Part shown: positions 5,635-60,933 of the stretch, piece by piece
Layout of the letters: each line of letters opens with the position of its first letter
How positions within the stretch are numbered: the stretch's first letter is position 1
Origin: Gossypium raimondii
Taxonomy: Eukaryota > Streptophyta > Magnoliopsida > Malvales > Malvaceae
Direction: 5' to 3'
Length of the DNA: 64,000 nt
NCBI RefSeq assembly: GCF_025698545.1
Contig: NC_068565.1
Span: 62,001-126,000 of the forward strand
Position numbers and translations under genes: made by a program
Notes under the pieces: model-generated
Databases searched by the model: none
What the model was told of the DNA's origin: nothing
What the model saw: the letters and a program-made list of their open reading frames with translations, nothing else

Positions 5635-7735
5635 ATACTTAGATGGTCGGATAGCATTTCAGGGTAACTCTCAAGTCTCAACCCTGGCAAGTAGGAGAAT
5701 CGAATTTCATTTGGAGTGCTAGACCATGGCTAAAATATAGATATAGTAGCCAAGATTATATAAAGTTTATATGGTATGAAATTGTCAAACGACCATGAGA
5801 TGTCATAGGTACAGTAAGTGAGGAAGAAAGGAATTGAAATGTAGAATTTAGGATAAGGATATAATATTGTACTCTGGGATGATGTCAAAATCCATTCATC
5901 CTTATCCATCTCATGTTCTCCATTGCCTTGTAATCTGAGGATTTCTTTGTATAATACCAGTAAAACTGCAGTTGCTCACTCTTGGATCATATTAAACATC
6001 ATCTCGTTTTTATGGATGATCCAAGTAGTAATCTTGGAAAGCACTAATCATTTACCAAAAAAAAATCTTAATTACAGATTTGAAAGAGTTTGAACTGAGG
6101 AGTGAGTTGTGACAGACAATTAGAGGGTGAGTGGCAGACAGAAACAGTCCCACATTTTTGTATCCTCCTTTTGCAGCAAGTCAAAAGGTATTGAAGAGAC
6201 GCATGAAGCCCCAGCATATGGCGTGGTCAACGACAGATCTCATAGCTTTGCTTTGTTGAGGTTGCGGTCTTTAAGACTGTTGCGTTTTCAATTCATTCTG
6301 ACTTTGCAAGGGACGATTATGACAGGCAGAGAATATTTTTTTGTTTGGTTGATTACAACAAACACGACATGATCGAAAATGGCTTCTTATTTCAAACCAG
6401 ATATTTCTCTTCTTTGCAGTAGAAGGAACAAATCTATCCTTTAATCTTGTCAAGTTCCAGCAACTGAACAAAACCCTTTCTGACATATTTGTAACAGCTC
6501 TATGGGGGATTTTGAGAGGCGCAGTTGCAGAGCCAATTTGGCATTCTGTCCACCTCCACCAATAATTCTTGGTAGTGGAGGTGGCCAGTATGTCAAACAG
6601 GCAGTGTAAATTTGTCACTGAGAAACCCCAAGAGAAATTAATGAAATACCCCTTTACCATCATGTCTTCATCTGTTGAGGTACAACTATATCATGTAGTC
6701 TTGGAAATGCCAATTCCAACACCCTAATGTCCATCTTTTCTTGCATATATATGTATTATCTTCTTCTTCTTCAATATGTTATTGAATCCAGTTTGCTGGC
6801 AATGCTTTAAACTTGCTTTGGTCATCTCTTCAGCCTTTTTTTCTCAGGTGGAAAACTGACGTTACCTAATATCTCATCCAGATTTTGCCTTGGGTTGGAG
6901 TTTTCTGATCCATGAATTTGTTCACAAATTTGATCTGTACGTTTCTTTAACATATATATTTTTTTCTGATCCATGAACTCTCTTGCATGCTTTATACTTC
7001 TATCCTCTCATATACTGGCTCTCAACATCTCATCACCATGCGAACCGCACTCTGTCTCCGCCCTCTTCTTGGTCATCGACACATACAAGCGTTTGTATAT
7101 ATTTCTTCTGCTCCGCTGCATGGCATGCAGTACGTGCATTTGGTAATTTGGAGGTCAAATATAGATCAAAATTAGACTATAACCATAGCCAAGGGAATTT
7201 CTTATGTTAATCAAACTCCATGTGGGATGATCATTGCGAAGAGAATAACAACTCGTTTAACTTTAAGCTGCGATTAAATAACCATTCGTTATTCGATTAT
7301 TTCTTGAATTTTTTTTATCCAACACATTCATTCTACGTTTGAGTTTTCAGTTACTCTATTATTGAAGAAGCGAATGCATTAGTTATAAGCATCATGCCCA
7401 ATTATCTTTTGTTCCACAGCCTAAATACAAATGTTTATTTATATTTGAAAATATTAAATTTTGTACCAGGAATAAGAAAATAACAAATAAAAACTTTGGG
7501 CTGTGATTTGAATGGGGTTTTGATTTCAATGGGCTTTTTGGAACAGAAACCTCATCAGTCCACATATCGACCATTTTATGTACGTTGATAATCCTAAAAT
7601 AAATTAAAAACCCTTTATAAAATTAAACCAAAAAGAAAAAAAAGAAGAAAGAAATTCGACCAAAATATATCCATCGCGAGGGTTTTCGAGTTAACCTTGG
7701 TCGTCTTTTCTATCAAATTAACAAGTAAATTCCAA
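5635..7735. other. Intergenic: 3' UTR of patatin-like gene, then no clear gene
   Basis: About 300 bases of probable 3' UTR are followed by unremarkable DNA. Short open frames at 6127-6372 (+), 6271-6663 (-) and 6983-7210 (+) show no family motif, and I leave them out as genes. The last 100 bases carry the probable 5' leader of the pinin-like gene. Confidence 0.5.
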
Positions 7736-38000: not shown

Positions 38001-38248
38001 GATCAGGTTATGGTATTGTATTGTCCCACCTCAGCTTGTTTTGTTAATACAGTTTACCCGCGGAACTAAAATAAAACAATTAGGAAATAAAACCAAAAAA
38101 GTAAAATCTCTCCTTTTCTTCTTTTTCTTTAAATATGCGTCTCCATGTATGATATAAACTCAACGTAAATCGCAATCACAATCACAATCACAATCACAAT
38201 CACATTCACGCTTTTCTTTATTGCTTTCGCTTTTTTTTTCTCAAACCA
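35073..38248. other. Long intergenic region between LOG and the kinase gene
   Basis: Mostly AT-rich. A GC-richer frame at 36534-36791 (+, 85 codons, MGLLADYKIHEEAESPFF, with a hydrophobic middle) is the only stretch with coding-like composition, but I recognise no family. About 36791-37032 has weakly matching inverted ends (ggtcaattacactt against agtataattta), perhaps an old MITE. The kinase promoter and 5' leader occupy the last 150 bases. Confidence 0.45.
38174..38203 (+). repeat. Hexamer microsatellite (AATCAC x5) in the kinase 5' leader
   Basis: Five perfect copies of AATCAC in a row, followed by a diverged sixth. It lies 46 bases before the start codon, so it should be transcribed in the 5' UTR. 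Length variation there could affect translation (inference). Confidence 0.85.
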
Positions 38249-41200
38249 ATGGTGATGGAGGATACCGAGAGTTGCGGGAGCAAAGCTAAAGATACGCCGC
38301 CGTTGCAAAGCCAGAAACAGCGGCTAAAGTTTGACGTCTACAATGAGGTGCTCCGACGGCTTCGACGATCCGATAAAGAAGAGGCTGATAGGCCCGGCTT
38401 TGACCACCAACTCTGGACTCACTTCGATCGCCTTCCTACTCGGTATAATAGCATATATGTTTTTTTCTTCATAATTTACTACATGCATAAAATACGACCT
38501 GAAATAAGGCAACGTATTCAGTCTTTTTTATTTTTATATAATTTTTTTGTAATTATGATTTTTTTTAATCGAGATACTGAATCTCAGATGCGTTCTTTTT
38601 TTCCTGTTTGCCTTTCGTGCTTAGAATTATAGATAGCGTTGGAGTTAAGGAACTGTTTGGATTAAAATTATGGTCAAAATTCTCTAGAGGTTAATAAGAA
38701 AATTTATAGGTTACGGTTTTGTTGTTAGTTTCGATCAGTGGATTAATATCGTATTTTTTTCTTTTGCTGTTGATGATATCAGAATCAAGTAATAACTGAA
38801 GCAGATTTGATAGTTTGCTTTTCTTTTCATTCATCAGAAAATCCATTTTTTGAACAAATTATAAATAGCTGTTTGAACTAAGCTGAGCTGATTATACATT
38901 GCAGCTATGCTTTGGATGTGAATGTGGAAAGAGCAGAAGATGTTCTTATGCACCAAAGATTACTGCATTTGGCTCATGATCATGCCACTAGACTAGCAAT
39001 GGAAGTTCGTCTCGTGCAGGTGACTTGTTTTTCCTCTTTCTTTCTTTTTTCTTTAGTTACATTTCATAACTAAGAACTAAGATTTTCTCTACGTTCTTAG
39101 TATAGGTGAAAAAATTGGTATTCCTAGACATTAGCATAATCAAATGTACCATGATGATTACCTGCTTGTGTAGGTGCAATCTACCTCTGATGGGAACTCT
39201 CCGAGTGAGGAATCTGCTCAAAGTTCTAGGAAATTGTCTAACAGACAAAGGTATGCTTCAGAAAAGCTTTTACGATCCATACCATAATTTACATGCATTA
39301 CTTTCTTAGAAACAGCTCTCATATGTCTACTTGTTTTTAAGGCTTGTATAATCTATTTGCCTCTTGATATTTTTCTTTCAATATTTTGCTTGTTCATTTT
39401 ATACATTGGCTGGTGTTAATGATGATAACAACTCTTGACTGGCTTTTCAATTGTCAGCATACATCCACCACCTGCCTTTGGCTCCTCACCTAATCTCGGA
39501 TCCCTTGCTGATCAAGATGGAGATAATTCTGAACATGGCAATTCACATTTTTCCAGGTATTTATTTATGTCTTAAAATGTCCTTATGCAAGCGATGATTG
39601 GTTAAGTTAGTGTCTTAGTGGTAGCTTTGTTTTGTACTTGATAAACTTACCATTTTGAATATCATGTATTGGTTCTTTTAAATATTCAGGAGCACATTAA
39701 TGGACAAACTCTTGTATAGGACCAAGTTTTCTTACCTCAGAGCTGTGCTTCACACGTGCTATCTTTTATTGACTTAAGTTTGAGTTGTTTATGCACATTT
39801 GTGATTGACATGTTCAGCTTCTGTCCCTCTGGCTTATTTTTCTACTGATATTTGGATAATTTTTTGGTGAATCTCTGTAAATACTTTCTATCATTTTGGA
39901 TGGTCAAAATTCCATTCTTTTCCAATTGTTGCTGATGCAGGCCCATGCATGAAATTACATTTTCAACAGAAGACAAACCAAAACTTCTCAGTCAGGTAAA
40001 GTATATGTTTATTCGTGGAATTACAAGAATATACTTGTTATTTTGAATTTGATGCTTCATGAAATCGAGATGGTTAGACTTTTATATTATTTAGGAATGA
40101 AGTTGTTGATAAAAAAGTAAGCCTTAGGGTCTGTCTGGGTCCTTGGTACAACTAACTGGAAGCTTATTGTTCTCTGGCTACTGGTTAGTCTTTTTTCATG
40201 TCAAAACTACAATCATTATATTGTTACCCATGCTTGAATTACTCCTCTAGAGAGTCTATGAGCTTACATGTGAAGTGCACATAGTTTTAGATTTTTGGCT
40301 ATGTAATATTACTTCTAATTCCATTGGGCCATAACCATGCAATATTTGCAGTTGACAGCATTGCTTGCTGAGATTGGGCTGAACATCCAGGAAGCACATG
40401 CATTTTCTACAGTTGATGGTTATTCCTTAGATGTTTTTGTTGTTGATGGTTGGCCATATGAGGTACTTTTCATTTTAATATCTTACTTCAGTAGCCAAGG
40501 ACATAATTATTTTTTACAATGACCCTTTAACTAAAAAAGAAAGAATAACAGCTCTGGAGATTGGTTTTTGTATATTTTATTTTAGCTGTCTACAAAGTAT
40601 CCTTATTATAGCTCAAAATTCCCAATTTATGAATTCTGTCATTTGTTAGTTTAGATGGTAATTGTTTTTGTTTTCTTGGGAGTCATTGAAACTCCGTTGG
40701 GGAACTATATGATTCATGATTGCTGCACAATTAGAAGGATTAAGCTTAAACATTGACCTATCAGAATATTATAATTTTTTTAGACTTGCTTGACTTATGA
40801 TATGAAATTGTCAGGAAACGGAGCAGCTTAAAGATGCTTTGGAAAAGGATCTCTTAAAAATTGAGGTAATTCATTACGGCAGTTTTAAAGTGTGTTAAAT
40901 TACGTGTGAGACTTTTGAGTGAAAGATCTCTCCTTTTGCTAAGGTGTTTCTTCCCACAATTAAAGTGATTATGGACTGTCATGGTGTTAGTTCTATCTGC
41001 AAAGCTTACAGTTCACTTGCATTGAATGTACTCATCATTTTGTCGTGCCCTATTATGCTAAAGTACTGGTTAATAGGACTAATTTCATGAAACTTTTTTG
41101 TTCCTGGCCTTTGTTCGTCTTGTCTATCTTTTCAAGTAAGCACTGGATGATGATGCTTATAAAATTGATCAGCTGTAAACGGCCCCCTCTGCATGATAAT

Positions 41201-43810
41201 TCTTTCTAATTTGTGAATCCAATGCTAAACAAAGGTTTAACTAATTTTATGATTGGCAGGTTTGGTGACAAAATAATTCTTACTACAATTCTAACAGTAT
41301 GCTTAAATGCAAAATGTTTATAAAGAAATGGAAATGTTGATGTGAGAGTCAGAATTTATTAACTGAAAGTTTGGGCTTTATATTATGAGCAACTCTAATC
41401 AGACTTTACTTTCAACTGGTTTTTATGCAGAAGCAATCTTGGCTGAAACAACTTCCCACTTCTCCTACAAAGGGCCAGGAGACTAGGACCAAAGGTGATC
41501 AGAATTATGTTGCAATTCCTAATGATGGGAGTGATGTTTGGGAAATTGATCCTAGACACTTAAAGTTTGAGAACAAAGTTGCATCTGGGTCATATGGGGA
41601 TCTGTAAGTGAATTAATTACTTTCTAATTGATCCTTTTTCTCCCTTTTGAGCATTAATAACATTGTCCTTGTTACCCTGTTTCAGGTATAAAGGTACTTA
41701 CTGTAGTCAGGATGTGGCTATTAAGGTCCTCAAGCCAGAGCGTGTAGATACTGATATACAGAAAGACTTTGCCCAGGAAGTCTTTATTATGAGGTTTGTA
41801 TTAGCTGATATGACAGGCTTCTCTAATTGCTGTTCTTTATGTTTATAGATGCATACCAGTGTCCATTTAGGAAGCAGTTACTTGCCTGACATCCTTGATC
41901 AGTTTTCAAATATTTTACCTTTCTTTCATCATGAACTCCACTGCTTTTTAATATTTGATCAAAATAGAATCCTTCTTTTGGATGACTGCATTATTAATTT
42001 GCTCCTTTAATAAAAAATTCATTCAAAATTTGCAGGAAAGTTCGGCATAAAAATGTAGTACAATTTATTGGTGCATGTACCAAGCCTCCAACCTTGTGTA
42101 TTGTAACAGGTATTCTGATGATTCTTTATTGACTAGATGAAAGTGAATTTTAAGACTATTGTTCTTTCATCCTTGGATATACTCTTTTCTAAATGTTCTT
42201 TCATTTTCTTTCTCTCTGCAGAATTTATGTGTGGTGGAAGTGTGTATGACTATCTTCATAAACAGAAGGGTGTTTTCAAGCTTCCATCATTGCTTAAAGT
42301 TGCAATAGATGTTTCCAAAGGAATGAACTACTTGCACCAAAATGATATAATCCACAGGGATTTGAAGGCTGCAAATCTTCTGATGGATGAAAATGAAGTC
42401 AGTCCCTAGAATTTACTTAAGTTTATCCTCAGCTTTTTCCAAGTTCCTCTCATTGTGATTCTACGGCATGCTTTTCATATTACAGGTGGTTAAGGTTGCT
42501 GATTTTGGGGTTGCTAGAGTGAAAGTTCAATCTGGAGTTATGACAGCTGAAACTGGAACATATAGATGGATGGCTCCAGAGGTGTGCTCTTAACCCTACT
42601 TTTTGTTCTTCGAGATAAAAATGATTATAAAAATGTTATTTATATTTGTTCATTTATCTTGATAAACAAACAGAAATTTGGATTATTTATCAAACGCCAT
42701 GTTCATTTACAACCCTACACTAAACATACATTAGGGAACCGGTTTACTTGCCTCTTGGATATCTCTTTATTCATTGTTGCTTTTATTTTCATCTTTAGAT
42801 AATTAATTGGTAGTAGCTAGTAGCGATCATTTGAATTGAGATTGCTGTCATCTTGGATATCCTACAACACTTTGTTTTGCATTGAAGGTCATTGAACATA
42901 AGCCATATGATCACAAGGCCGATGTTTTCAGTTTCGGAATCATGTTATGGGAGTTGTTAACTGGAAAGGTATTGCTGGATCAATTATCTTTTCTTTTGAT
43001 TATATGTTTAAGGTATGCATGCATTAAGATATGTGCTTTTGTTTGTTTTGGGTTGTTGAATCCCATGGTTACCTTGCTGCTTTTGTTTCCATTGTCAGCT
43101 TCCATATGAATACTTAACCCCATTACAAGCAGCTGTAGGAGTGGTTCAAAAGGTTCGTCAACTTTTTTCTCAATGCAATGTTGATAATGATTTTTCATAG
43201 CATAGGTTGAGAACAAAATTATTATCACGTAAAAGTGGTAAAAGTATTATGGACTATAGAGGACTTGTATTAGAAGTTAAATTGTATTTTATTCTCTTTA
43301 CTAAAAAAAATAACAAATTAGTCCTTATATGTTAGATAAAAGAGTGGGCCAATTTTAACAATAAAAATTGATGAAATTTTAACAAAAGAATCAATTTACT
43401 CTTTAATCTAATGTATAAGAACTGATTTACTTATTTCTTAAGTAAATGGGACAAAATGCAATGCAAAGATGAGCATGATACTTTTACCTATAAATGTAAT
43501 GATTTGTCATTGACATTGATTCCAGGGATTACGTCCCACAGTCCCAAAGAACACTAACCCGAAGCTCACTCAACTGCTAGAGAGATGCTGGCAACAAGAT
43601 CCAACACTAAGACCTGATTTTTCTGAAATCATAGGCATTTTACAGCAAATTTCCGAGGTCTGTTTTCATTCTGTGCACATGTTATAGTTTATATACTTGC
43701 AATAACTCGAACGACATGAATATTGATATCGAATTTTATAAAAACAGGTAGGAGATGAAGGGAAATCTTCTGGAGGATTTTTCTCAGCTCTTAGAAAGGC
43801 AGCAAAGTAG
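38249..43810 (+). CDS. STY46/STY8/STY17-type ACT-domain protein kinase, complete copy (16 exons, 552 aa)
   Basis: Exons: 38249-38442, 38905-39019, 39174-39250, 39458-39556, 39941-39995, 40352-40462, 40815-40865, 41431-41603, 41686-41793, 42036-42109, 42222-42397, 42486-42581, 42888-42968, 43099-43152, 43526-43657 and 43748-43810. All join in frame. The family is plant Raf-like MAPKKK (group C) kinases; Arabidopsis STY8/17/46 phosphorylate chloroplast transit peptides in the cytosol. An ACT domain lies at about 163-235 ([20 protein letters not shown]). The kinase domain spans about 280-535: Gly-loop [11 protein letters not shown], Lys305 in [14 protein letters not shown] (Asp399), DFG at 417-419, and WMAPE. 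All catalytic residues are present. The ATG at 38255 is an alternative start. Exons 2-16 are repeated downstream in the tandem duplication. Confidence 0.95.
43237..43490. mobile_element. Mutator-type MITE, copy C (kinase intron 14)
   Basis: Ends GGTAAAAGTATTATGGAC and GCATGATACTTTTACC are inverted repeats of the same family as the copies at 52624 and 54213. The interior shares 'caaattagtccttatatgttagataaaagag'-like words. It is shorter (about 250 bp), and the 9-bp flanks match at about 6 of 9 positions, so it is the oldest copy. The same insertion is present in unit 2 at about 50075-50329. Confidence 0.7.
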
Positions 43811-44765
43811 ATAAAGTTATAGAAACATAGGCTTTTCAACTATGTTGGCGATTCCCTCCCAGCATTTTCATCACTTCTGTACAGCATTATTGTCCTTTAT
43901 TTAACCCATTTTTTGCTGGTATAAAATGAGCTTTTGTGACATGATTATTTCTACAGTTAGTATTTTTCTTTCTTTTTCTGAACCAATTTTGTTTTCTTTA
44001 TTTCGAATAACAATGGGTCATGTTTTTGATGAATTTGTCCACATCTACTGATAAAGTATTGGATCTGCTTTAACCCAATAATTTGGGAGCTTAAATTGTT
44101 ATTTTTGCTGTGAGAGTTTTTATTTATTTATTAACTTAGCATGTGTCTACCATCCTACTTATTAACACATTATTTAATATTTTGTAATATTTAACACATA
44201 TTTTAAAATAGTTAGACATAAAATAAAAATAATTAATACAAATTTAAACATATAATTAGAAAAATAGAGTACCTAAGAAAATAAGGCTTTTTCAAAACAC
44301 CTAATATTTATTTATTAAGTATTTATTTATTTATTAAGTATGCAAAAAAGAAAAAGACCCCAGAACTTCTAATAATATCAACATTCAAAGCCCATGTACA
44401 AAAAAAGCCTGTAAGAATTCACAGATCAAAACCCTGTCTAACTAAACACCAACATTTCATCAATCGAAAACAATGATGCAATGCTTGAATATGATGCTTT
44501 TAAAAAAAATCAATCCTTCAATTACAAAAAAAAAATACCAAACATATGAAGCTTTGGGGGCTGCCTGCCTGCCTACCTCAAATGCTGAAACCAAGCTCCA
44601 CGTGTAAATTTTCTTAATGAGTTTGCTTCAATGAATTAATGCGAAGAGCGGTGATGTTTTTTGCCTTGGGAAAAACATCTCTTTTGCCAGTACCACCGTG
44701 TGAAGGCATGAAATATACCAACAGAGACCGTACAACACTGACAAGTATGGATGATAATCGAGATC
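43811..44765. other. Spacer between convergent 3' ends (unit 1)
   Basis: Kinase 3' UTR and AT-rich spacer leading to the orphan transportin 3' end. The short frame 44639-44866 is antisense to a transportin exon. No independent gene. Repeated at 50648-51605 in unit 2. Confidence 0.5.
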
Positions 44766-45337
44766 TTATACTTGATACTTTGATAGTTTGTCTTTCTCAG
44801 GTGGCTCCAATGCAGACATACATTGGTCCCATGCCCCATTCCTTAGCATCTGCAACAATTCAGTGAATGAACTTAGTCTAATGCATAATATAATTTGTTT
44901 CTATAAATACACCAAAATATAGATCATCCTCGAATGAATAGTAATTCACTGCAATTAAGATATCCTATCAAATTATAGAAAAAGACAACTTTTGCTAAAT
45001 ATGTGTGTGTTTGCAGTTACCCCAAATGAAGTAATACATGCAGTCAGAAATATTTAAAGGATTTTTAGCATTTTAACATATACATATATATATAAAGACA
45101 AAATATTCAGGAAATAACAAAGAACCCCCCACCTGTTTATAACCGTGCAAGACCTGGCAAACTTCATTATGTAGTTCTCCATTCCTTATTTCCTACAGGC
45201 ATACAACAATGTCAAAAAGCTCCAACTTCAGTTTAACATATACAACCCTCTAAAACATTTATTAACAGCATCCTTACATCCCAACTTGCAATAGCTTTGC
45301 ACATCAAAACAAGTGAACTCAGAGCAGCTGATGGGTT
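44766..45337 (-). pseudogene. Orphan 3' end of transportin (last exons only), from the duplication
   Basis: Copies of transportin exon 29 (44766-44849), exon 28 (45133-45192) and a part of exon 27 (45278-45337) lie here without any upstream exons. Sequence equals the intact gene: [20 protein letters not shown] and [20 protein letters not shown]. Exon 27 is cut off after its NPSAALSS part by the duplication breakpoint. It cannot be translated as transportin, but could supply a polyadenylation site or an antisense transcript for the neighbouring kinase (inference). Confidence 0.9.
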
Positions 45338-45742
45338 ATGATTTAGGCAACGTATTCAGTCTTTTTTATTTTTATATAATTTTTTTGTAATTATGATTTT
45401 TTTTAATCGAGATACTGAATCTCAGATGCGTTCTTTTTTTCCTGTTTGCCTTTCGTGCTTAGAATTATAGATAGCGTTGGAGTTAAGGAACTGTTTGGAT
45501 TAAAATTATGGTCAAAATTCTCTAGAGGTTAATAAGAAAATTTATAGGTTACGGTTTTGTTGTTAGTTTCGATCAGTGGATTAATATCGTATTTTTTTCT
45601 TTTGCTGTTGATGATATCAGAATCAAGTAATAACTGAAGCAGATTTGATAGTTTGCTTTTCTTTTCATTCATCAGAAAATCCATTTTTTGAACAAATTAT
45701 AAATAGCTGTTTGAACTAAGCTGAGCTGATTATACATTGCAG

Positions 45743-48700
45743 CTATGCTTTGGATGTGAATGTGGAAAGAGCAGAAGATGTTCTTATGCACCAAAGATTA
45801 CTGCATTTGGCTCATGATCATGCCACTAGACTAGCAATGGAAGTTCGTCTCGTGCAGGTGACTTGTTTTTCCTCTTTCTTTCTTTTTTCTTTAGTTACAT
45901 TTCATAACTAAGAACTAAGATTTTCTCTACGTTCTTAGTATAGGTGAAAAAATTGGTATTCCTAGACATTAGCATAATCAAATGTACCATGATGATTACC
46001 TGCTTGTGTAGGTGCAATCTACCTCTGATGGGAACTCTCCGAGTGAGGAATCTGCTCAAAGTTCTAGGAAATTGTCTAACAGACAAAGGTATGCTTCAGA
46101 AAAGCTTTTACGATCCATACCATAATTTACATGCATTACTTTCTTAGAAACAGCTCTCATATGTCTACTTGTTTTTAAGGCTTGTATAATCTATTTGCCT
46201 CTTGATATTTTTCTTTCAATATTTTGCTTGTTCATTTTATACATTGGCTGGTGTTAATGATGATAACAACTCTTGACTGGCTTTTCAATTGTCAGCATAC
46301 ATCCACCACCTGCCTTTGGCTCCTCACCTAATCTCGGATCCCTTGCTGATCAAGATGGAGATAATTCTGAACATGGCAATTCACATTTTTCCAGGTATTT
46401 ATTTATGTCTTAAAATGTCCTTATGCAAGCGATGATTGGTTAAGTTAGTGTCTTAGTGGTAGCTTTGTTTTTGTACTTGATAAACTTACCATTTTTGAAT
46501 ATCATGTATTGGTTCTTTTAAATATTCAGGAGCACATTAATGGACAAACTCTTGTATAGGACCAAGTTTTCTTACCTCAGAGCTGTGCTTCACACGTGCT
46601 ATCTTTTATTGACTTAAGTTTGAGTTGTTTATGCACATTTGTGATTGACATGTTCAGCTTCTGTCCCTCTGGCTTATTTTTCTACTGATATTTGGATAAT
46701 TTTTTGGTGAATCTCTGTAAATACTTTCTATCATTTTGGATGGTCAAAATTCCATTCTTTTCCAATTGTTGCTGATGCAGGCCCATGCATGAAATTACAT
46801 TTTCAACAGAAGACAAACCAAAACTTCTCAGTCAGGTAAAGTATATGTTTATTCGTGGAATTACAAGAATATACTTGTTATTTTGAATTTGATGCTTCAT
46901 GAAATCGAGATGGTTAGACTTTTATATTATTTAGGAATGAAGTTGTTGATAAAAAAGTAAGCCTTAGGGTCTGTCTGGGTCCTTGGTACAACTAACTGGA
47001 AGCTTATTGTTCTCTGGCTACTGGTTAGTCTTTTTTCATGTCAAAACTACAATCATTATATTGTTACCCATGCTTGAATTACTCCTCTAGAGAGTCTATG
47101 AGCTTACATGTGAAGTGCACATAGTTTTAGATTTTTGGCTATGTAATATTACTTCTAATTCCATTGGGCCATAACCATGCAATATTTGCAGTTGACAGCA
47201 TTGCTTGCTGAGATTGGGCTGAACATCCAGGAAGCACATGCATTTTCTACAGTTGATGGTTATTCCTTAGATGTTTTTGTTGTTGATGGTTGGCCATATG
47301 AGGTACTTTTCATTTTAATATCTTACTTCAGTAGCCAAGGACATAATTATTTTTTACAATGACCCTTTAACTAAAAAAGAAAGAATAACAGCTCTGGAGA
47401 TTGGTTTTTGTATATTTTATTTTAGCTGTCTACAAAGTATCCTTATTATAGCTCAAAATTCCCAATTTATGAATTCTGTCATTTGTTAGTTTAGATGGTA
47501 ATTGTTTTGTTTTCTTGGGAGTCATTGAAACTCCGTTGGGGAACTATATGATTCATGATTGCTGCACAATTAGAAGGATTAAGCTTAAACATTGACCTAT
47601 CAGAATATTATAATTTTTTTAGACTTGCTTGACTTATGATATGAAATTGTCAGGAAACGGAGCAGCTTAAAGATGCTTTGGAAAAGGATCTCTTAAAAAT
47701 TGAGGTAATTCATTACGGCAGTTTTAAAGTGTGTTAAATTACGTGTGAGACTTTTGAGTGAAAGATCTCTCCTTTTGCTAAGGTGTTTCTTCCCACAATT
47801 AAAGTGATTATGGACTGTCATGGTGTTAGTTCTATCTGCAAAGCTTACAGTTCACTTGCATTGAATGTACTCATCATTTTGTCGTGCCCTATTATGCTAA
47901 AGTACTGGTTAATAGGACTAATTTCATGAAACTTTTTTGTTCCTGGCCTTTGTTCGTCTTGTCTATCTTTTCAAGTAAGCACTGGATGATGATGCTTATA
48001 AAATTGATCAGCTGTAAACGGCCCCCTCTGCATGATAATTCTTTCTAATTTGTGAATCCAATGCTAAACAAAGGTTTAACTAATTTTATGATTGGCAGGT
48101 TTGGTGACAAAATAATTCTTACTACAATTCTAACAGTATGCTTAAATGCAAAATGTTTATAAAGAAATGGAAATGTTGATGTGAGAGTCAGAATTTATTA
48201 ACTGAAAGTTTGGGCTTTATATTATGAGCAACTCTAATCAGACTTTACTTTCAACTGGTTTTTATGCAGAAGCAATCTTGGCTGAAACAACTTCCCACTT
48301 CTCCTACAAAGGGCCAGGAGACTAGGACCAAAGGTGATCAGAATTATGTTGCAATTCCTAATGATGGGAGTGATGTTTGGGAAATTGATCCTAGACACTT
48401 AAAGTTTGAGAACAAAGTTGCATCTGGGTCATATGGGGATCTGTAAGTGAATTAATTACTTTCTAATTGATCCTTTTCTCCTTTTGAGCATTAATAACAT
48501 TGTCCTTGTTACCCTGTTTCAGGTATAAAGGTACTTACTGTAGTCAGGATGTGGCTATTAAGGTCCTCAAGCCAGAGCGTGTAGATACTGATATACAGAA
48601 AGACTTTGCCCAGGAAGTCTTTATTATGAGGTTTGTATTAGCTGATATGACAGGCTTCTCTAATTGCTGTTCTTTATGTTTATAGATGCATACCAGTGTC

Positions 48701-50647
48701 CATTTAGGAAGCAGTTACTTGCCTGACATCCTTGATCAGTTTTCAAATATTTTACCTTTCTTTCATCATGAACTCCACTGCTTTTTAATATTTGATCAAA
48801 ATAGAATCCTTCTTTTGGATGACTGCATTATTAATTTGCTCCTTTAATAAAAAATTCATTCAAAATTTGCAGGAAAGTTCGGCATAAAAATGTAGTACAA
48901 TTTATTGGTGCATGTACCAAGCCTCCAACCTTGTGTATTGTAACAGGTATTCTGATGATTCTTTATTGACTAGATGAAAGTGAATTTTAAGACTATTGTT
49001 CTTTCATCCTTGGATATACTCTTTTCTAAATGTTCTTTCATTTTCTTTCTCTCTGCAGAATTTATGTGTGGTGGAAGTGTGTATGACTATCTTCATAAAC
49101 AGAAGGGTGTTTTCAAGCTTCCATCATTGCTTAAAGTTGCAATAGATGTTTCCAAAGGAATGAACTACTTGCACCAAAATGATATAATCCACAGGGATTT
49201 GAAGGCTGCAAATCTTCTGATGGATGAAAATGAAGTCAGTCCCTAGAATTTACTTAAGTTTATCCTCAGCTTTTTCCAAGTTCCTCTCATTGTGATTCTA
49301 CGGCATGCTTTTCATATTACAGGTGGTTAAGGTTGCTGATTTTGGGGTTGCTAGAGTGAAAGTTCAATCTGGAGTTATGACAGCTGAAACTGGAACATAT
49401 AGATGGATGGCTCCAGAGGTGTGCTCTTAACCCTACTTTTTGTTCTTCGAGATAAAATGATTATAAAATGTTATTTATATTTGTTCATTTATCTTGATAA
49501 ACAAACAGAAATTTGGATTATTTATCAAACGCCATGTTCATTTACAACCCTACACTAAACATACATTAGGGAACCGGTTTACTTGCCTCTTGGATATCTC
49601 TTTATTCATTGTTGCTTTTATTTTCATCTTTAGATAATTAATTGGTAGTAGCTAGTAGCGATCATTTGAATTGAGATTGCTGTCATCTTGGATATCCTAC
49701 AACACTTTGTTTTGCATTGAAGGTCATTGAACATAAGCCATATGATCACAAGGCCGATGTTTTCAGTTTCGGAATCATGTTATGGGAGTTGTTAACTGGA
49801 AAGGTATTGCTGGATCAATTATCTTTTCTTTTGATTATATGTTTAAGGTATGCATGCATTAAGATATGTGCTTTTGTTTGTTTTGGGTTGTTGAATCCCA
49901 TGGTTACCTTGCTGCTTTTGTTTCCATTGTCAGCTTCCATATGAATACTTAACCCCATTACAAGCAGCTGTAGGAGTGGTTCAAAAGGTTCGTCAACTTT
50001 TTTCTCAATGCAATGTTGATAATGATTTTTCATAGCATAGGTTGAGAACAAAATTATTATCACGTAAAAGTGGTAAAAGTATTATGGACTATAGAGGACT
50101 TGTATTAGAAGTTAAATTGTATTTTATTCTCTTTACTAAAAAAAATAACAAATTAGTCCTTATATGTTAGATAAAAGAGTGGGCCAATTTTTAACAATAA
50201 AAATTGATGAAATTTTTAACAAAAGAATCAATTTACTCTTTAATCTAATGTATAAGAACTGATTTACTTATTTCTTAAGTAAATGGGACAAAATGCAATG
50301 CAAAGATGAGCATGATACTTTTACCTATAAATGTAATGATTTGTCATTGACATTGATTCCAGGGATTACGTCCCACAGTCCCAAAGAACACTAACCCGAA
50401 GCTCACTCAACTGCTAGAGAGATGCTGGCAACAAGATCCAACACTAAGACCTGATTTTTCTGAAATCATAGGCATTTTACAGCAAATTTCCGAGGTCTGT
50501 TTTCATTCTGTGCACATGTTATAGTTTATATACTTGCAATAACTCGAACGACATGAATATTGATATCGAATTTTATAAAAACAGGTAGGAGATGAAGGGA
50601 AATCTTCTGGAGGATTTTTCTCAGCTCTTAGAAAGGCAGCAAAGTAG
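45743..50647 (+). pseudogene. 5'-truncated copy of the STY46-type kinase (exons 2-16 only)
   Basis: Begins at the exon 2 acceptor (exon 2 is 45743-45857) and runs to a last exon ending TAG at 50645-50647. All 15 exons and splice sites match the complete copy; translated exon segments appear identical. Promoter, 5' UTR and exon 1 (residues 1-64) are missing. If transcribed, the first in-frame Met is at 45786 in exon 2 ([16 protein letters not shown]), which would give a 473-residue protein still holding the whole ACT and kinase domains. Splicing of copy-1 exon 1 onto this copy is also conceivable. The call as pseudogene rests on the lost 5' end, not on broken frames; all coding frames are open. 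Confidence 0.85.
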
Positions 50648-51605
50648 ATAAAGTTATAGAAACATAGGCTTTTCAACTATGTTGGCGATTCCCTCCCAGC
50701 ATTTTCATCACTTCTGTACAGCATTATTGTCCTTTATTTAACCCATTTTTTGCTGGTATAAAATGAGCTTTTGTGACATGATTATTTCTACAGTTAGTAT
50801 TTTTCTTTCTTTTTCTGAACCAATTTTGTTTTCTTTATTTCGAATAACAATGGGTCATGTTTTTGATGAATTTGTCCACATCTACTGATAAAGTATTGGA
50901 TCTGCTTTAACCCAATAATTTGGGAGCTTAAATTGTTATTTTTGCTGTGAGAGTTTTTATTTATTTATTAACTTAGCATGTGTCTACCATCCTACTTATT
51001 AACACATTATTTAATATTTTGTAATATTTAACACATATTTTAAAATAGTTAGACATAAAATAAAAAATAATTAATACAAATTTAAACATATAATTAGAAA
51101 AATAGAGTACCTAAGAAAATAAGGCTTTTTTCAAAACACCTAATATTTATTTATTAAGTATTTATTTATTTATTAAGTATGCAAAAAAGAAAAAGACCCC
51201 AGAACTTCTAATAATATCAACATTCAAAGCCCATGTACAAAAAAAGCCTGTAAGAATTCACAGATCAAAACCCTGTCTAACTAAACACCAACATTTCATC
51301 AATCGAAAACAATGATGCAATGCTTGAATATGATGCTTTTAAAAAAAATCAATCCTTCAATTACAAAAAAAAAAATACCAAACATATGAAGCTTTGGGGG
51401 CTGCCTGCCTGCCTACCTCAAATGCTGAAACCAAGCTCCACGTGTAAATTTTCTTAATGAGTTTGCTTCAATGAAATAATGCGAAGAGCGGTGATGTTTT
51501 TTGCCTTGGGAAAAACATCTCTTTTGCCAGTACCACCGTGTGAAGGCATGAAATATACCAACAGAGACCGTACAACACTGACAAGTATGGATGATAATCG
51601 AGATC
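50648..51605. other. Spacer between convergent 3' ends (unit 2)
   Basis: Same content as 43811-44765: 3' UTRs of the truncated kinase copy and of transportin. No independent gene. Confidence 0.5.
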
Positions 51606-54600
51606 TTATACTTGATACTTTGATAGTTTGTCTTTCTCAGGTGGCTCCAATGCAGACATACATTGGTCCCATGCCCCATTCCTTAGCATCTGCAACAATT
51701 CAGTGAATGAACTTAGTCTAATGCATAATATAATTTGTTTCTATAAATACACCAAAATATAGATCATCCTCGAATGAATAGTAATTCACTGCAATTAAGA
51801 TATCCTATCAAATTATAGAAAAAGACAACTTTTGCTAAATATGTGTGTGTTTGCAGTTACCCCAAATGAAGTAATACATGCAGTCAGAAATATTTAAAGG
51901 ATTTTTAGCATTTTAACATATACATATATATATAAAGACAAAAATATTCAGGAAATAACAAAGAACCCCCCACCTGTTTATAACCGTGCAAGACCTGGCA
52001 AACTTCATTATGTAGTTCTCCATTCCTTATTTCCTACAGGCATACAACAATGTCAAAAAGCTCCAACTTCAGTTTAACATATACAACCCTCTAAAACATT
52101 TATTAACAGCATCCTTACATCCCAACTTGCAATAGCTTTGCACATTAAAACAAGTGAACTCAGAGCAGCTGATGGGTTCGCTCGGACCTGAAAACGTTGG
52201 GTGTCATCCAGGTAAAATTAGATTATTTTGAGTTAATGATGATGATTAGAACAAGAGATGCATACCACTGCACATAGACCTCGGAAGGCATCTTCTTTCT
52301 CGATATCATCACGTATCCTGCCACAAATTGTTTGATATAAAGACAATGCTAAACCGCACCACGAGAGTAGCTTAACAGTACATCAAGAAAAGAAATCATA
52401 AGGGAAATGAATCGATACTTACATAGACAAAGAAATACACCATGGTTGCATGAAATGCTCCATGTGTGGTGATACAAGGTCTGGACACACCCATGCAAGT
52501 CTCCCTAGAGTAATTGCAGTATTTTCAACAACTGACTTGTTTACCCCTTGCTGATCATACACACATGAGATAATGGTATCAACATGATCGTCAAGGCACT
52601 AATGCACAAACACGTAATTATGTGGTAAAAGTACTATGGAGACCCTATCCTAGGTGTCAGGTTAGATTTTGCCTCCTCTACTTAAATAATGAGAAAATTA
52701 GCCCCTATGCATTAGATCAAAGGGCAAACTGATCCTTTTTGTTAAAAAATTCATCTATTTCTACTGTTAAAAATTGGCATGGATGACAAAATAACCAAAC
52801 AATGACATATGGTATGCCACATGTATCTCATGCTGACGACAGAGAGCAGTTTTTAGAAGTAGAAATGGATGAAATTTTTACAGAATGACCAATTTACTCT
52901 ATGATCTATTGTACAGGGACTAATTAGCCCATTTTTTGAGTAGATAGGTAAAATTCAATCCTGCTCCTAGTACAAGAGCCTCCATGATACTTTTACCATA
53001 GTTATGTTTATATGGGCATGCAAGCCAACAAATGTCACCAACAAAAAGGGAAGATTACCTCTGCATGCTGAAGGATAGGAACCAAACATGAGATCACTGT
53101 CATGACAACCGGAGAAATTTCTTGACGAACCTGAAATTAAAGTCGAATAGTCAGTGACGATAAATGAGGGAAAACAAGACATCAAAGAAACCAAAGGGGG
53201 GTGTAAACTCAAGAAGGTGAATGAAGAGCACACATACCTTAATTGCTAGCTCTCCAATGGCCCAACATGCATTGTTTGCCACTGCAATGGTCTCATTTAA
53301 CTTGGGAGTGGTCTGCATGGGGGATATACTATGTAACACTATAAAGATGGTAAACTGAGATATGGAATTCCAAAATGAAACTTTACCAATTGGTTAGTTG
53401 CAACATCAAGAAATTCAGACAAACGAGGACGCAAATGAACAGGGCAAACCTAATCAAATTCAACATATGAATAAAGTGGATCAGCTTGGACCACGCCAAA
53501 AGGGGGGCGGGGGGATTATGAAAAAAGGGTGGTTTCGATTTGAACTTACTTTTGCAAGGTCCCCAACAAGTGCAAAGGCACTTTGTCGCACATCGGAATC
53601 ATCATCCATACAACATTGCAAAAGCAGGTCCCTCAAATTGCTCTGTGCAACCTGCATATAAGGTCTATGTGAACAGCACAAAACATACCAGTTCACATTG
53701 TAATATAACATATTTACCAATATCCAGACCACATGTTTTTTTCATCAAGAGCAAAGGAGAAAGCAAGTACCAGACTCTCTATTCCACCTTGAAGGCCCTC
53801 TGTAAGTCCAGAGAGCAAATCAAGTGAGCACACAATGAACTCCTTATCATACTGAACTCCAGCTGAAATAGGATCAACCTGCAATAGAAATTTCTATCAA
53901 TGTCTTCAAAAAACTATGTCGGAGAAACAACGGTAGTTGTAGTAACATTATTATGCAAATAGAATAGTATGTTGCATGGCAGATCAGTAGTTGTTCTGAG
54001 GTAAGATTCCAAAGATAGAGATTGTAGTAACTTTCTAGCTGATTCATCAGAACTAATGATTTTAACAACAGCATTATGCAAAAAGAATTTCAGCTGTTGG
54101 ACATGTTTGAAACTAATAGATGCTCTTAATTTCTCTCAATATCTACAGTATCTTTACTGTTAATGCTAATAAGATGGAAGTAGCACAAGTTGAAAGAAAG
54201 GTTCTGTACTTAGGTAAAAGTACCATGAAGGCCCATATACTAAGAGTCAGATTGCATTTTGCCCATTTACTCAAAAAATGGGCAAATTAGCCCCCGTATG
54301 TTAGATTAAAGAGTAAATTGGTCCTTTTTGTAAAAAATTTCATCCAATTCTACTGTTAAAAACTGATGTGGTTGACGAAATAACCAAACAGTTACACATG
54401 GTATGCCACGTGCACCTCATACTGACGTACATGGACCAGTTTTTTAACAGTAAAAATGGAAAGAATTTTTAACAGAATGTCCAGTTTGCTCTTTGATCTA
54501 ACATACAAGGACTAATTTGCCCATTTTTTTCATAGAGGGGACCTCCATGGTACTTTTACCACTGTACTTAATATATATAATACAAAATGTAATTTCACAT

Positions 54601-57600
54601 GCATTGGCTAAACATCTATACATCAAAAGCAAACACATGCTACCGTTATATCATCAATAAAATTAACCAGGTAATGGAACAGAAAACAAGCCACTCCGCA
54701 AGGCACTAGTCAATATACTGCTTAATGGAAGAGATCAATCACATTTGAGTAAAAAATATATAGGAAATCATTGGCCAACCATGAAGGGCAGAGAACACAA
54801 ATGAAAAACTAATTCAACATGATTGTCGATTAGTAGAAATTAACAGTCGATTATAAAAACCTTGGCCAGTTGTTGAGTCTGGATGATATTTATGCACCTC
54901 TGGAATACAGGCTGATCAAATTGAGAGAATCCAGTACCCAATGCCTGAAAAAGTAAAATACATTAATCCTAATGGTAACTCTACTAAAAATTTGTACATA
55001 CAGCATATTGTTGAAAAATATAGCAAATTTCTTAAACAAGGGATTAGATTACAAGAACAAGGAGGTCAAAATATATCTGCTAATATCAGTATATCGATGA
55101 ATAAAGCTTAGAAATGCATAAAACCGGAGTGATATATCCTAATAATAAATTGTTCTAAAAAGTTATGGTGATTAGCTGATTGCAGATTAAAAGAATTACG
55201 TACACTGATTGTTTGTACTCACTTCTATGTTTAGTTGCCCATCTAGGCAATAACTACTTATAAAAGAAATAAATAAATGAAAAGGTTAAAGAACAGTTAA
55301 CCGACCTGTGCTATGGACGTGAAGCACTCCAGCAGTCGAAGGAGATCTTTGTCAGAATTTGAAACCTGCTGCCACTTCGCAATGAGTGGTGGCATCAGAA
55401 TTTCAAGATAAACTGGCTGCAAATGATAAAGCCAGTCAATGGGAGAGAATCATCTTACCACAAACAAATAAAACCCACCAAAAAGTGAAATAACTTTTGA
55501 GCATAACACGGCTAATATAGATTAGAAGGAAGAGACAAAAGTTTGAGGAACATGGTTATCATCTTTAGCAGTAGCATACTGAAATACCTGATTCAATTTC
55601 TCTCCAACAGCATCTGCTAGAGTTCCAATAGCATCATAAACAATTCTAAGATTCCGTCTCTGTAAATGTTTATACACACATAAGTAAGCAAGAAGTTTTA
55701 TCCGATGGTGATGATGAAGCAGCATATGGTATTAAAGGAAGGCAACAACTGACAGTACCAGGTCTCATATAAGTCATAATTGCAACACTAAAAACAGCTT
55801 ATTATAATGTAGTGGCCATCAAACAAACCTGATACTTGCCAAAAGCGCACATAAGATGCTGTAAAATTACTTCCAACCTCGGTGCCAACTCTTCAGCAGC
55901 CTCCTGAAAATAAATAAAACAATTTTTATATTATTGAAGTAATGGGAGGATTATGAAATGACTCCACCTGATTTATTGATATAAACCTCTATAAACTACA
56001 CTATTAGATATCGATAAGAATTTAAATCCTAAAACCAACAATTCATGCAGCAGATTCATAACAACCTCTTCAAGTGTTGCAAAAGCCGAACAAGCAGCCT
56101 CTTGCACCCGCTTGTTAGTATCCAATATTCTTCGCAGGAGACCCGTAAGAACTGAGTCGAATTGCTCATACCCTTTTTTATTACCACTATCCTGAGATAA
56201 ATGAAACATTAGAGTCACAACCACAGAATTCTGTGAAGTGATATGCACCAAGAACAATAGCTGAATAATAGCCAAAAAGATTTCATCTGTACCTGAACAA
56301 TGTATTTGCTGAATCGAGAAAGTGTCCAACAAGAAATACTCCTTATGAGTGCAAACTTATCATCTAAAAGGGGAATCAGAAATGCTACAATCTGCACATA
56401 TAAATATGTTTTTCTATCAATGCAAGTATGCAACAAGCAGCATGACAAATAAGAGTAAAATAAAACCATTGCTAAAAGCGGTGATTATAAATTTAAGAGC
56501 ACAATTTTATTTAATGAAAACAGATGAATCAAAAACGTAGACAAAAACAATAATTACCTCAGACAAATGAGGATAAAGACCATTAATGCAACCTTCAGCA
56601 ATTGCACCAAGAGTCAACACGGCAGCTTCCCTATCTTTCCAAGCTTCATCACCACTAGCAGATAACTTGGCCTGCAGATTCAACAGTTAAGACCATGTAA
56701 CTAAATAGCTCAACACCAAAAGAATAGATTTTGATGCAAACTCCTATTAAAAGTTGTTGAGGGGGTTGGCTCTCTTTCAGAAGAAGTCTTTGAAATGTTG
56801 TCCGTCGAGCAACCGATCGAACCCTCAAACAATGGAGGTATTGAGCCCGAGGTGTCTATGCTCGGTTTTATCCCCAATTTTTTTCTCCCGATTCCAACGA
56901 GAGCCCAACAGGTTAACGGAGTTTGGGGAGCACCTCGCCACCATCTAACCAAGTGGTAGTGTTCTTACCCACCAATGCCATATAAGGGAATGGGTTTGAA
57001 CCCCACCAGGCCAAACACTAAACATTTCCTTGGTGGACCAGGCGCTCCCACTAAACTCTGTGAACCCATCGAGGGCTCTCCGCAAAGTCAGGAGACAAAC
57101 ACTCAGGGATAAAACCGAGTATAGATATCCTAGGCACAATACTTCCACTATTTGAAGGTCCGGTCGATTGTTCAACGGACGACACTTCAAAGACTTCTCA
57201 CAAAAAGAGAGCCGACCCCCTCAACAAAAGTCAACTGACTTTCAAATATCACTATTTTCCATAACTAATTTCCATGCACACATACAAGAAAAGTTTGTTG
57301 TTAACAGCAATAACATTGTGATTCAAGCTAGCATATCCATGTCATAGCAAATTACTCAAGTTTGTAGATTCTTCTGAAAGAAACAAGCTGATCTTCTGAA
57401 ATGTTCATGCAACAAACTGAGCTAAAATCTTTTGGCCAAGATGAACACATAATGCAACATGCCAATTGGTGATGATGGATGGCCAATAACATAAATGGAA
57501 ACGTTAAAACAGTTACAATTTTCATGATCATACTTTGACATCCCCAATAGGTAAGTTACCTCAATAATAGGCATCAAAGCAGGAAGAATTTCATCTCCAA

Positions 57601-60600
57601 ACACATTTGACAGAACATCAAGAGCCGCTGCACTGCATTTCCGTAAGTTCCATATGCCATAGGAGTCATCATCCTGTACCGAATTATCCAGGAAACAGTT
57701 TCATTAAGGAACCGATTTTTCTAAAACTAACAGACATATAGAACTTAGCTATGTTAGTTGCTGAAAGGAAAAAAAATGCTTACATCATCTTCTGCATCAT
57801 CAGAACCATGAAATCGCGGTGTATGAAATCGAGGTTTTAGATCCTGAAGAGGAAATGCCATGAGAGGATATATTAGGAAGCAATTTCAGCAAGACAGAAT
57901 GCAGATATGTGACAAATTCTAGAAAACTAAGAGCTGAAAATAAATTATATTAACCTGATCTCTGTCTGGAAGAGACTCATCTTCCTACAACAATGAACGG
58001 TTCCCAAGTAAGTTATCAAATTATAATTGCCAAGTCAAATAATCTGAAAGCAGAAGCTAACAAGACATAACCTCAGCATCAACAAGTGACTCATCATCAT
58101 CAGCATAAACCATGTTTGACAATAAAATCTACAAAAAAACAGATACATGAAAACCAATGATAAGGACATTGTATGGTTATGCAAAGAGAAAAAGAATCAA
58201 AATATGAAAGACAGCAAAGTATTAGCATACCGGAATTAGACGTGGCAAAAATTCTCTCAAACTCTCATATGGTAACTGTGCATCACAATATACAGACCTG
58301 CCAATCACGATCAATGTTGAATCATAAACACTTGGCAGGGAAGGGGGGCTTAAAGCTAGTAAAATTAAATCCAATTAAATCCATGGCCTTCGTTCCTGTC
58401 CCTGTGCAGATTCAAGAAAATGAATCTACATTTCTAACAGAAAGGATTAAGAATATGATGGATAATGGCTATGATATTCAAAATCTTGGAAACTACAGCT
58501 CAATTTACAACATAAATGGCACATAGAGGCAGACATGCAGGAGTAAGCACACCTCCAAGATCTCTGACATATTTAACTCACATTATGGCACTATTAAGTA
58601 GAAGTTGTCAATATGCCAAAGCAATCAAAATTATATGGTTTTGCAATACCCCTAGTCTACATATCAGAGATTTGCACATGGAATGCATAAAGTAGAAATT
58701 TACCAAAATTCACATGCTTCTAGTGCTACTTCATCATCAGTGTCCTTACTGACTTGCAGCATATATTCAATTACGTTCTTCAAATGTGGCTGAGAAATAG
58801 TGAAAATCACATCAGTGAATTGGCAAAAGAAGACAAGACAATTGCATATAGACTAAAATATAACAACAAAATATACCGACCTCCAGAAAGGATGGATGGA
58901 TTTCAATTAGCTGGACAAATGCTGCACAAACCTGACCATTTGGCAAAAAAAACATTGATCTAAATATGCTTAATCTTAGAAAAACAAGATTGCATTTTGT
59001 AGTCATCACTGACTCAAAATACTAAAAATAGCCAATTTTATACAGAAGAAAATTTAGTAGGAGACAAACAGTTCTTGGTGTAGTATCCCATTTAATACAT
59101 GTATTAGGAGAGTCCAGCAAGATTATAGTCTCATGGCAGGAAAAAGAAATAGCACCATTAACATCAAAGACTAGTTTTAAAACATGTCTAACTCTAATAC
59201 TGCATTCTATATATCAATGCTAACAACAGATTTAAGAGTTCCATGCAAAAGACTTAATTATAACTATAAAAAAGAATACAAGAGGAGAAAGAAAAACAAT
59301 TCACCAATTTCCGCACTTCTGCAGCAGGGTCATTAGCAAGGACAAATAAACCCTGAAGGAATTTATCCATGGATGTATATAAAGCCTGCAAGATATTAAT
59401 GTATGGTATCAAGTACTGCCCCAAAAGTATCAGTAAGAATACAAAATTTCAAGTTAAAACTTACGGAAGGCATCAACATAATGTATTGGTTTACAGAATC
59501 CAATGAAAGCTTTCTCAGAGAAGTATGTGGAGATTGAAAAAACTGCTCATAGAAAATAATAATAATAATTAGCAACAAAAATAGAGTATTGATAAATGCA
59601 TGATGGAATTTTAATACAAGGAACTACATTTAACCTGAAATAAACGAGGAAGGAATATTTTGATAGGCCTTTCAGCTAACCCAGGCATATCTGAATCTAG
59701 CACTTGTGGTATATCCTCACAAATCTGTCTTACAAAACAATGGTTGATGAATTAAGTGTAAGTAGTATGGTACATACTTAGTATTGAAACATGTCTTTGC
59801 TGTAGGAGCTTTTCTCAGCTAGATTAAAAGTTTGATCATAGGAAAGCAGTAACCAGGGTTCGTAGCTTCTTGTATTTGAGTGACAAAAGAACCTTAGTAC
59901 TTGAAACAGGTTTCCAATATTTAGAATATCATGGATTTTCATAAGGAAATTTTGTGTATAAGCTATAAGCATCTTAAGAAGAGAAGACCGGAACTAGGAA
60001 AATAAATAAGTAGAACTTGTAGGCACCAACTCTGGTGCAATGTAAGATCAAGAATCTTGTTCCACTGACAATACATGTTTATATGTAAGTGAATCTAGTT
60101 CTAAAAGGTCAAAGCATCATCTGCTACATTGCTAGATGCTGAATATTTTCAAATAGCTTATAGACTAAATTACAGTGACATGCTTTTATTGATTTAACTT
60201 AAGGTTCACAATAATTACCAATATGACGACTTCCATTCAATGATGATAGAAATTAGAAGATTACGCATTGCATACCTTTGACAATGCATCCATGGCACCT
60301 TCCATGTGATTTAAGTCACTGCTATCCAAGCAATTGACAAGAGCTTGCAACAGCTCAGGCCACCCAAGAATTCCCCCTTGTTGAACAACCACGGTTACAA
60401 TAGTCCCAACTGTGGACCTAATATGTTTATCAGCTGCTCCTAAACAAGGTAACAATTCAGACTTTATATATTGCTGGTGTGCAGGCGACATTAACTTGTA
60501 TGCTGTCCTGAGATTATTTTTCAACAACAAACCAGCTGCTTGTCGAATCTCTCCTGATTTTCCCTGCATATAGAAAGTAGACAAGTGTTGGTAATATGCT

Positions 60601-60933
60601 AGTGCATTAAACACCTAATATATGAGCAAAACTACATCATAGTAGACATGTTTGATCAAAGTACATAGAAATCCAGTTCCTCAAGAAACACGTAAATTCA
60701 AATAGAAATAAGAGAAAATTTCTACTAAACTAGCTGAAACAAACCTCAGCTCGAGCAAGGATAAAAACGAGATAGTTGTTAAAATCAGGGAACTGAGAGT
60801 AGTGCTGAAGCTGTTGCCAAATCTGAGACTTATCAGCTGAAGAATATGGCGAAATCTGCTGTTCTAGTAATCCACAGATCTCCTTTAACCCCTCTTCTTG
60901 TGGCTGCCACGAAGCACTCCCAGCCGCCGCCAT
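51606..60933 (-). CDS. Transportin-1 / karyopherin beta-2 (29 exons, 894 aa)
   Basis: Start 60933 ([20 protein letters not shown]), stop 51606-51608. Exons: 60745-60933, 60276-60563, 59635-59724, 59465-59542, 59305-59385, 58881-58931, 58704-58789, 58231-58297, 58072-58128, 57955-57984, 57784-57843, 57560-57673, 56558-56671, 56293-56391, 56066-56191, 55829-55903, 55588-55659, 55306-55416, 54861-54944, 53771-53878, 53550-53651, 53387-53449, 53238-53312, 53059-53130, 52423-52550, 52266-52317, 52119-52187, 51974-52033 and 51606-51689. It imports PY-NLS cargoes (hnRNP-type RNA-binding proteins) through nuclear pores with RanGTP; Arabidopsis TRN1 also affects miRNA loading. HEAT repeats run throughout, and the acidic H8 loop is at about 320-362 ([25 protein letters not shown]). 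C-terminus ends KLSKYQV. The last exons lie in the tandem duplication, and this copy is intact. Confidence 0.97.
52624..52998. mobile_element. Mutator-type MITE, copy A (transportin intron 24)
   Basis: Inverted ends GGTAAAAGTACTATGGAG and CTCCATGATACTTTTACC. It is flanked by 9-bp target duplications TAATTATGT (52615-52623) and TAGTTATGT (52999-53007), one mismatch. Interior has 'gcaaattagtcc'-type words and an interior motif ending in a run of A. 375 bp, no coding capacity. Nine-bp duplications are the hallmark of the Mutator superfamily. Confidence 0.85.
54213..54561. mobile_element. Mutator-type MITE, copy B (transportin intron 19)
   Basis: Inverted ends GGTAAAAGTACCATG and CATGGTACTTTTACC. 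Perfect 9-bp target duplication CTGTACTTA at 54204-54212 and 54562-54570. 349 bp. It closely resembles copy A along its length (shared ACTGTTAAAAA and TTTTTAACAGTA arms). The youngest copy of the family here, judged by its perfect flanks. Confidence 0.9.
56755..57226. mobile_element. Foldback element with about 190-bp inverted arms and a tRNA-like core (transportin intron 12)
   Basis: Left arm 56755-56943 and right arm about 57027-57226 are inverted copies at about 75-80 per cent (by eye). The outer ends are TGTTGAGGGGGTTGGCTCTC and its complement. A 5-bp direct repeat AAAGT flanks it (56750-56754, 57227-57231). The core carries a tRNA-type A box (TAACCAAGTGG, 56946-56956) and B box (GGGTTTGAACCCC, 56992-57004) 35 bases apart. 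No protein. The superfamily is unclear; a 5-bp duplication does not fit hAT (8), Mutator (9) or Harbinger (3). Confidence 0.75.

Follow-up and report, generated by a model that had tools for sequence, protein, structure and literature searches.

Two convergent genes, a protein kinase gene on the forward strand and a transportin gene on the reverse strand, meet within the 64-kb window of Gossypium raimondii DNA (the whole stretch that was analysed). A pair of long direct repeats spans the ground where they meet and carries part of each gene. The features, by position in the window, are as follows.

38249–43810, + strand: intact gene for a Raf-like protein kinase with a putative ACT domain, 16 coding exons, 552 amino acids (by-eye splice model)
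51606–60933, − strand: intact transportin-1 (karyopherin beta-2) gene, 29 coding exons in the model (splice model)
38507–45337, + strand: unit A, left copy, 6831 bp (megablast, global alignment)
45338–45344, + strand: junction filler ATGATTT, 7 bp, which continues neither flank at the break (alignment)
45345–52178, + strand: unit B, right copy, 6834 bp (megablast, global alignment)
45743–50647, + strand: 5'-truncated kinase copy, exons 2–16, in unit B (splice model)
44766–45337, − strand: 3' fragment of the transportin gene, 60 of the 69 bp of exon 27 plus exons 28 and 29 (splice-model coordinates)

All 15 introns of the kinase model are GT-AG, and the frame stays open for 552 amino acids. Pfam identified the kinase domain (PF07714, 2.7e-73) together with an ACT match (PF01842, E 8.3e-06) that scores 25.9 bits, under the curated cut-off of 27 bits. 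Among the best 60 of 65 PDB matches (E 1e-50 or better), CTR1, which we take to be a plant kinase, ranks second and third. The closest named plant group is presumably STY8/STY17/STY46. These kinases have been assigned to Raf clade C2 (excerpt of PMC6419318) and are reported to phosphorylate the transit peptides of chloroplast precursors (excerpt of PMC7020404). About 40 bp upstream of the start codon, AATCAC is repeated seven times in tandem (38168–38209).

The transportin model combines 28 exons with a 30-bp micro-exon (57955–57984) to give 29, with the end of exon 2 placed by visual inspection. It yielded a full-length match to transportin-1 (832.7 bits, query 8–892 of 895, with one query residue of the micro-exon guessed). 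Two matches to the MIR7502 family, on both strands, lie in transportin introns (52740–52882 and 54329–54474). Both are palindromic, and by blastn they are 80% alike over 320 bp, which has the look of a miniature inverted-repeat element and not of dedicated microRNA genes. Among 10 of the 16 papers listed under the name MIR7502, nine concern cotton by title, so the matches would suit cotton or a relative as the source. At ~56750–57225, also in a transportin intron, inverted ends read by eye (TTGTTGAGGGGGTCGGCTCTCTTT... and a near reverse complement) point to a non-autonomous DNA element some 470 bp long.

Comparing the window with itself by megablast (E ≤ 1e-10) returned one repeat pair only, 38507–45337 against 45345–52178, which covers 6839 columns at 99.78% identity with 2 mismatches and 13 gap openings; weaker repeats in the window, such as the MIR7502-like elements, are detectable by blastn and not by megablast. 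Chance could not plausibly yield a 6.8-kb match at 99.8%, and adjacent direct copies of such identity, set 7 bp apart, have the form of a recent tandem duplication. Base-by-base global alignment resolved 15 differences between the units, comprising 13 single-base indels and two substitutions (unit A versus unit B: 44636 T versus 51476 A, and 45305 C versus 52146 T). The initial annotation had described two direct copies 7 bases apart and about 99.8% identical; megablast and alignment both bore this out, and the base-by-base comparison confirmed its coordinates and its two substitutions. There are no N characters at the junction or elsewhere in the 64-kb window. The duplicated segment is present in the sequence as given.

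The left break falls inside kinase intron 1 (38443–38904) and the right break inside a transportin coding exon (52119–52187), which is exon 27 of the 29 in the model when the micro-exon is counted; both placements had been proposed at first inspection and agree with the splice models. Exon 1 of the intact kinase gene lies outside the unit and exons 2–16 lie within unit A, while the intact transportin gene has exons 28 and 29 and 60 of the 69 bp of exon 27 within unit B. Because the breaks fall in kinase intron 1 and transportin exon 27, the outer kinase and transportin genes are whole, and the geometry claimed earlier, with intact outer genes and two partial copies in the middle, holds in the splice models. 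The unit-B kinase copy is without upstream region, start codon and exon 1, and the unit-A transportin fragment is without exons 1–26. These truncated genes stand head to head at the junction on opposite strands and point apart, so no sense fusion is made there; 'joining two convergent genes', as the duplication had been described, is apt for the layout but not for any fused product.

The coding sequence of kinase exons 2–16 is identical in the two units over 1465 bp, and the sole coding difference between them is synonymous (TTG/TTA, leucine, on the transportin strand). The reading frame of the kinase domain and the putative ACT domain is undamaged in the unit-B copy, whose first in-frame methionine is residue 80, leaving 473 amino acids. 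Most likely, the two inner partial gene copies are non-functional passengers. There is a very slim chance that the unit-B copy is transcribed from the rearranged junction to give an N-terminally truncated, newly regulated kinase beginning at Met80; were that so, the locus would show a new gene variant at the moment of its origin. In the cotton literature consulted on tandem pairs of this kinase, 10 of 164 listed papers and the excerpt of PMC6419318, nothing bore on this locus. Exact scans of viral contigs with a 29-mer from the junction and another from the kinase gave 0 matches. Protein scans of prokaryote contigs with the first 189 amino acids of transportin (15 candidate stretches) and of viral contigs with 179 amino acids of the kinase (10 candidates) confirmed none; plants are outside the scope of both collections, so these negatives carry no weight.

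Around the junction, three short sequences drew our attention.

38553–38561, + strand: TTATGATTT, candidate template for the filler, matching the filler plus the two preceding bases over 9 bases, 46 bp inside the unit
38496–38504, + strand: GACCTGAAA, 2 bp outside the left break (shared 9-mer)
52185–52193, + strand: second GACCTGAAA, 6 bp outside the right break (shared 9-mer)

Chance would give a filler match of 9 or more bases with probability 0.041 when 100 bp around either break are considered, and 0.062 when 200 bp are. The match is only nominally significant and is one among several features examined. A search confined to 50 bp of the break returned no template match, and an inverted copy of the filler with its two preceding bases lies no more than 500 bp from the right break. 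Sharing of GACCTGAAA outside both breaks has P 0.00275 for this combination and 0.0085 for any of the four direct combinations. The 9-mer is absent from the junction, which rules out a simple model of unequal crossing over at the shared copies and leaves GACCTGAAA without a simple role in the route proposed below.

Filler and candidate template would suit TT priming and copying of the kind seen in polymerase-theta-type joining. By this route, a broken or stalled DNA end would be extended by ~6.8 kb on the sister template. Polymerase-theta-type end joining would next connect the extended 3' end (...GGGTT) with the original end (AGGCAACG...). In that step the terminal TT would prime on TTATGATTT, which lies 46 bp within the other end, and ATGATTT would be copied; sealing of the ends would leave a head-to-tail 6.83-kb duplication. 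In the excerpt of Kamp et al. (PMC7368036), 24 of 33 insertions of at least 5 nt at deletion sites were templated nearby. Tandem duplications there range from 1 kb to 1 Mb, mostly ~10–20 kb, and their junctions resemble deletion junctions in showing microhomology and occasional insertions; the authors favour joining of a sister-chromatid-extended end to the other original end as the source of tandem duplication. The C. elegans brc-1/brd-1 tandem duplications of that excerpt (PMC7368036) resemble the present case in being head to tail, in having one new junction, in their kilobase scale and in a short insertion possibly copied from nearby. They differ in that the majority measure ~10–20 kb and come from repair mutants tracked through generations, whereas here a single plant junction is at hand and the polymerase-theta pathway is proposed from its sequence. 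A literature search for such junctions in plants listed a single paper, which concerns embryonic stem cells.

The nature of the 15 differences bears on whether the duplication is real. Each of the 13 indels lengthens or shortens a homopolymer run in the alignment, a pattern on which the initial annotation did not remark: 11 of the 13 fall in runs of 4–5 bases, one in a 3-base run and one within the 25 runs of 6 or more bases. In Arabidopsis, indels made up 8/39 and 10/70 of mutations in mutation accumulation controls, and 20/74, 35/123, 29/98 and 53/183 in warmed or heated lines and populations (excerpt of PMC8145854); close indels were filtered in that work, which lowers its indel counts. Across Arabidopsis indel fractions of 0.14–0.30, the probability of at least 13 indels among 15 differences was 8e-10 (fraction 10/70), 8e-8 (8/39) and 7e-6 (29/98). 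The indels are also crowded. Four gaps between neighbours are ≤25 bp, versus 0.39 expected (P 0.00035), and the same copy is the shorter one in all five neighbouring indel pairs within 150 bp (P 0.027).

Two of the indels could be polarised with the help of one further feature.

43304–43462, no strand assigned: degenerate MIR7502-like palindromic element in kinase intron 14 (blastn, alignment)

This element has no Rfam match. As reference we used its two better-preserved copies in the transportin introns, which supply four aligned arms. At sites 43353 and 43377 the four arms carry 5–6 T, copy B carries 5 T and copy A carries 4 T; copy A is therefore the changed copy, by loss of a base, at both polarisable indels, and the remaining 11 of the 13 could not be polarised. 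None of the 13 indels lies in a coding exon, versus 1.9 expected after run-length matching (P 0.13), which leaves exon selection unsupported as a cause. Frameshifts in unique coding DNA say nothing on overall base quality: none occurred in 2669 bp of modelled exons, versus 0.83 expected, and the models were built to avoid stops.

Taken on these counts, the 13 indels look poorly explained by plant mutation and well explained by residual long-read consensus error. Short-run losses that come in close pairs within one copy point the same way, and such errors would be kept because short reads lack unique placement in near-identical copies. In bacterial genomes, homopolymer-length errors outlast short-read polishing in repeats, since reads prefer the error-free repeat instance and leave the erroneous one uncovered (Polypolish paper, excerpt of PMC8812927). 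Most of the 13, and perhaps every one, are probably consensus errors and not mutations. Homopolymer differences of this kind are unfit as a clock, whether the duplication is real or false.

On balance, the sequence probably records a genuine and recent event in which one 6.83-kb segment was duplicated head to tail, with residual consensus errors left in the copies, and both copies would then be present in the plant. We favour this reading because the junction contains no N and the filler has a candidate template nearby; the shared 9-mer, the identity of kinase exons 2–16 and the synonymous nature of the sole coding difference lend it further support. The weights given to this reading and to the two considered next are a matter of judgement and were not computed.

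A false duplication made by the assembly is a possibility we regard as doubtful, and it could take two forms. The homotype form supposes a pair of contigs from one locus that overlapped by 6.83 kb, stayed unmerged through homopolymer errors and were joined end to end, the 7-base spacer being contig-end noise or a faulty gap fill; in the heterotype form, units A and B would be two haplotypes of one locus. Error-like differences between copies, here the 13 homopolymer indels among 15, are a mark of homotype false duplications and would be expected of an assembly artefact as much as of a real duplication with consensus errors. All 15 differences could be errors, and differences of this type are what keeps overlapping contig ends apart. 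According to the excerpt of Ko et al. (PMC9516828), false duplications arise from accumulated read errors, the published cause of under-collapsed homotype copies, or from divergent haplotypes; a gap most often separates the false copies, unsupported fill sometimes does, and false gene copies lying side by side are among the cases given. The locus resembles homotype false duplications of that source (PMC9516828) in its near-identical copies, in differences of the read-error type and in seeming to add partial genes. It differs from them in having no N or assembly gap between the copies (though the spacer could be an unsupported fill) and in carrying a short filler that continues neither flank and has a plausible template.

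The distribution of the shorter copy can be read both ways. Copy A is shorter at all six indel sites in the final 2 kb of unit A, as expected near a contig end, but it is the shorter copy at 39630 and 39653 too, a long way from that supposed end. Blocks of sites with the same shorter copy had P 0.010 over the 13 sites but 0.107 with close pairs merged, and we dropped their clustering as an argument. The two substitutions would be unexpected, though not impossible, from indel-type error, and for the heterotype form two substitutions in 6.8 kb would imply a nearly homozygous plant. A somewhat older real duplication, in which the indels are true mutations and gene conversion removed substitutions or kept them low, is improbable: adjacent direct copies can be homogenised, none of the indels is exonic and counting all 15 differences gives point estimates of ~157–423 thousand years, but conversion would erase indels as well as substitutions, and neither the indel excess nor the scarcity of indels in long runs (11 of 13 in runs of 4–5 bases) fits slippage.

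If the duplication is real and recent, as we favour, its age can be gauged from the two substitutions over ~6826 columns. Substitution rates of 2.6e-9, 3.5e-9 and 7e-9 were used for dating and gave 56, 42 and 21 thousand years, respectively; the 95% limits, taken across all three rates, run from 2.5 to 204 thousand years. The initial annotation had called the duplication very young and placed it within tens of thousands of years; the arithmetic is fair and the estimates of 21–56 thousand years agree, but the dating rests on two bases and holds only if the duplication is real and un-homogenised. Those two substitutions might be errors or allelic, in which case they could give no age, and any conversion between the copies would make the estimate too low.

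Local tandem gene duplication in plants produces adjacent direct copies of genic DNA. The present locus is like it in having two adjacent direct genic copies and unlike it in that neither gene was copied whole and both inner copies are partial. The duplication is either an ordinary kind of event or an assembly error, and no new mechanism is needed. A real event would be a new tandem duplication whose junction can still be read, an example of how plant segmental duplications start and a marker usable between accessions. If it is false, a gene count or a claim of young duplication drawn from this assembly would be wrong.

Two further matches lie elsewhere in the window. At 6524–6610, a MIR394 precursor match scores 61.7 bits versus the Rfam gathering score of 60 bits, and its hairpin contains TTGGCATTCTGTCCACCTCC, which we take to be the mature miR394 sequence. 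At 10290–10439, the H/ACA snoRNA snoR135 is matched at 119.5 bits between open frames on the + strand.
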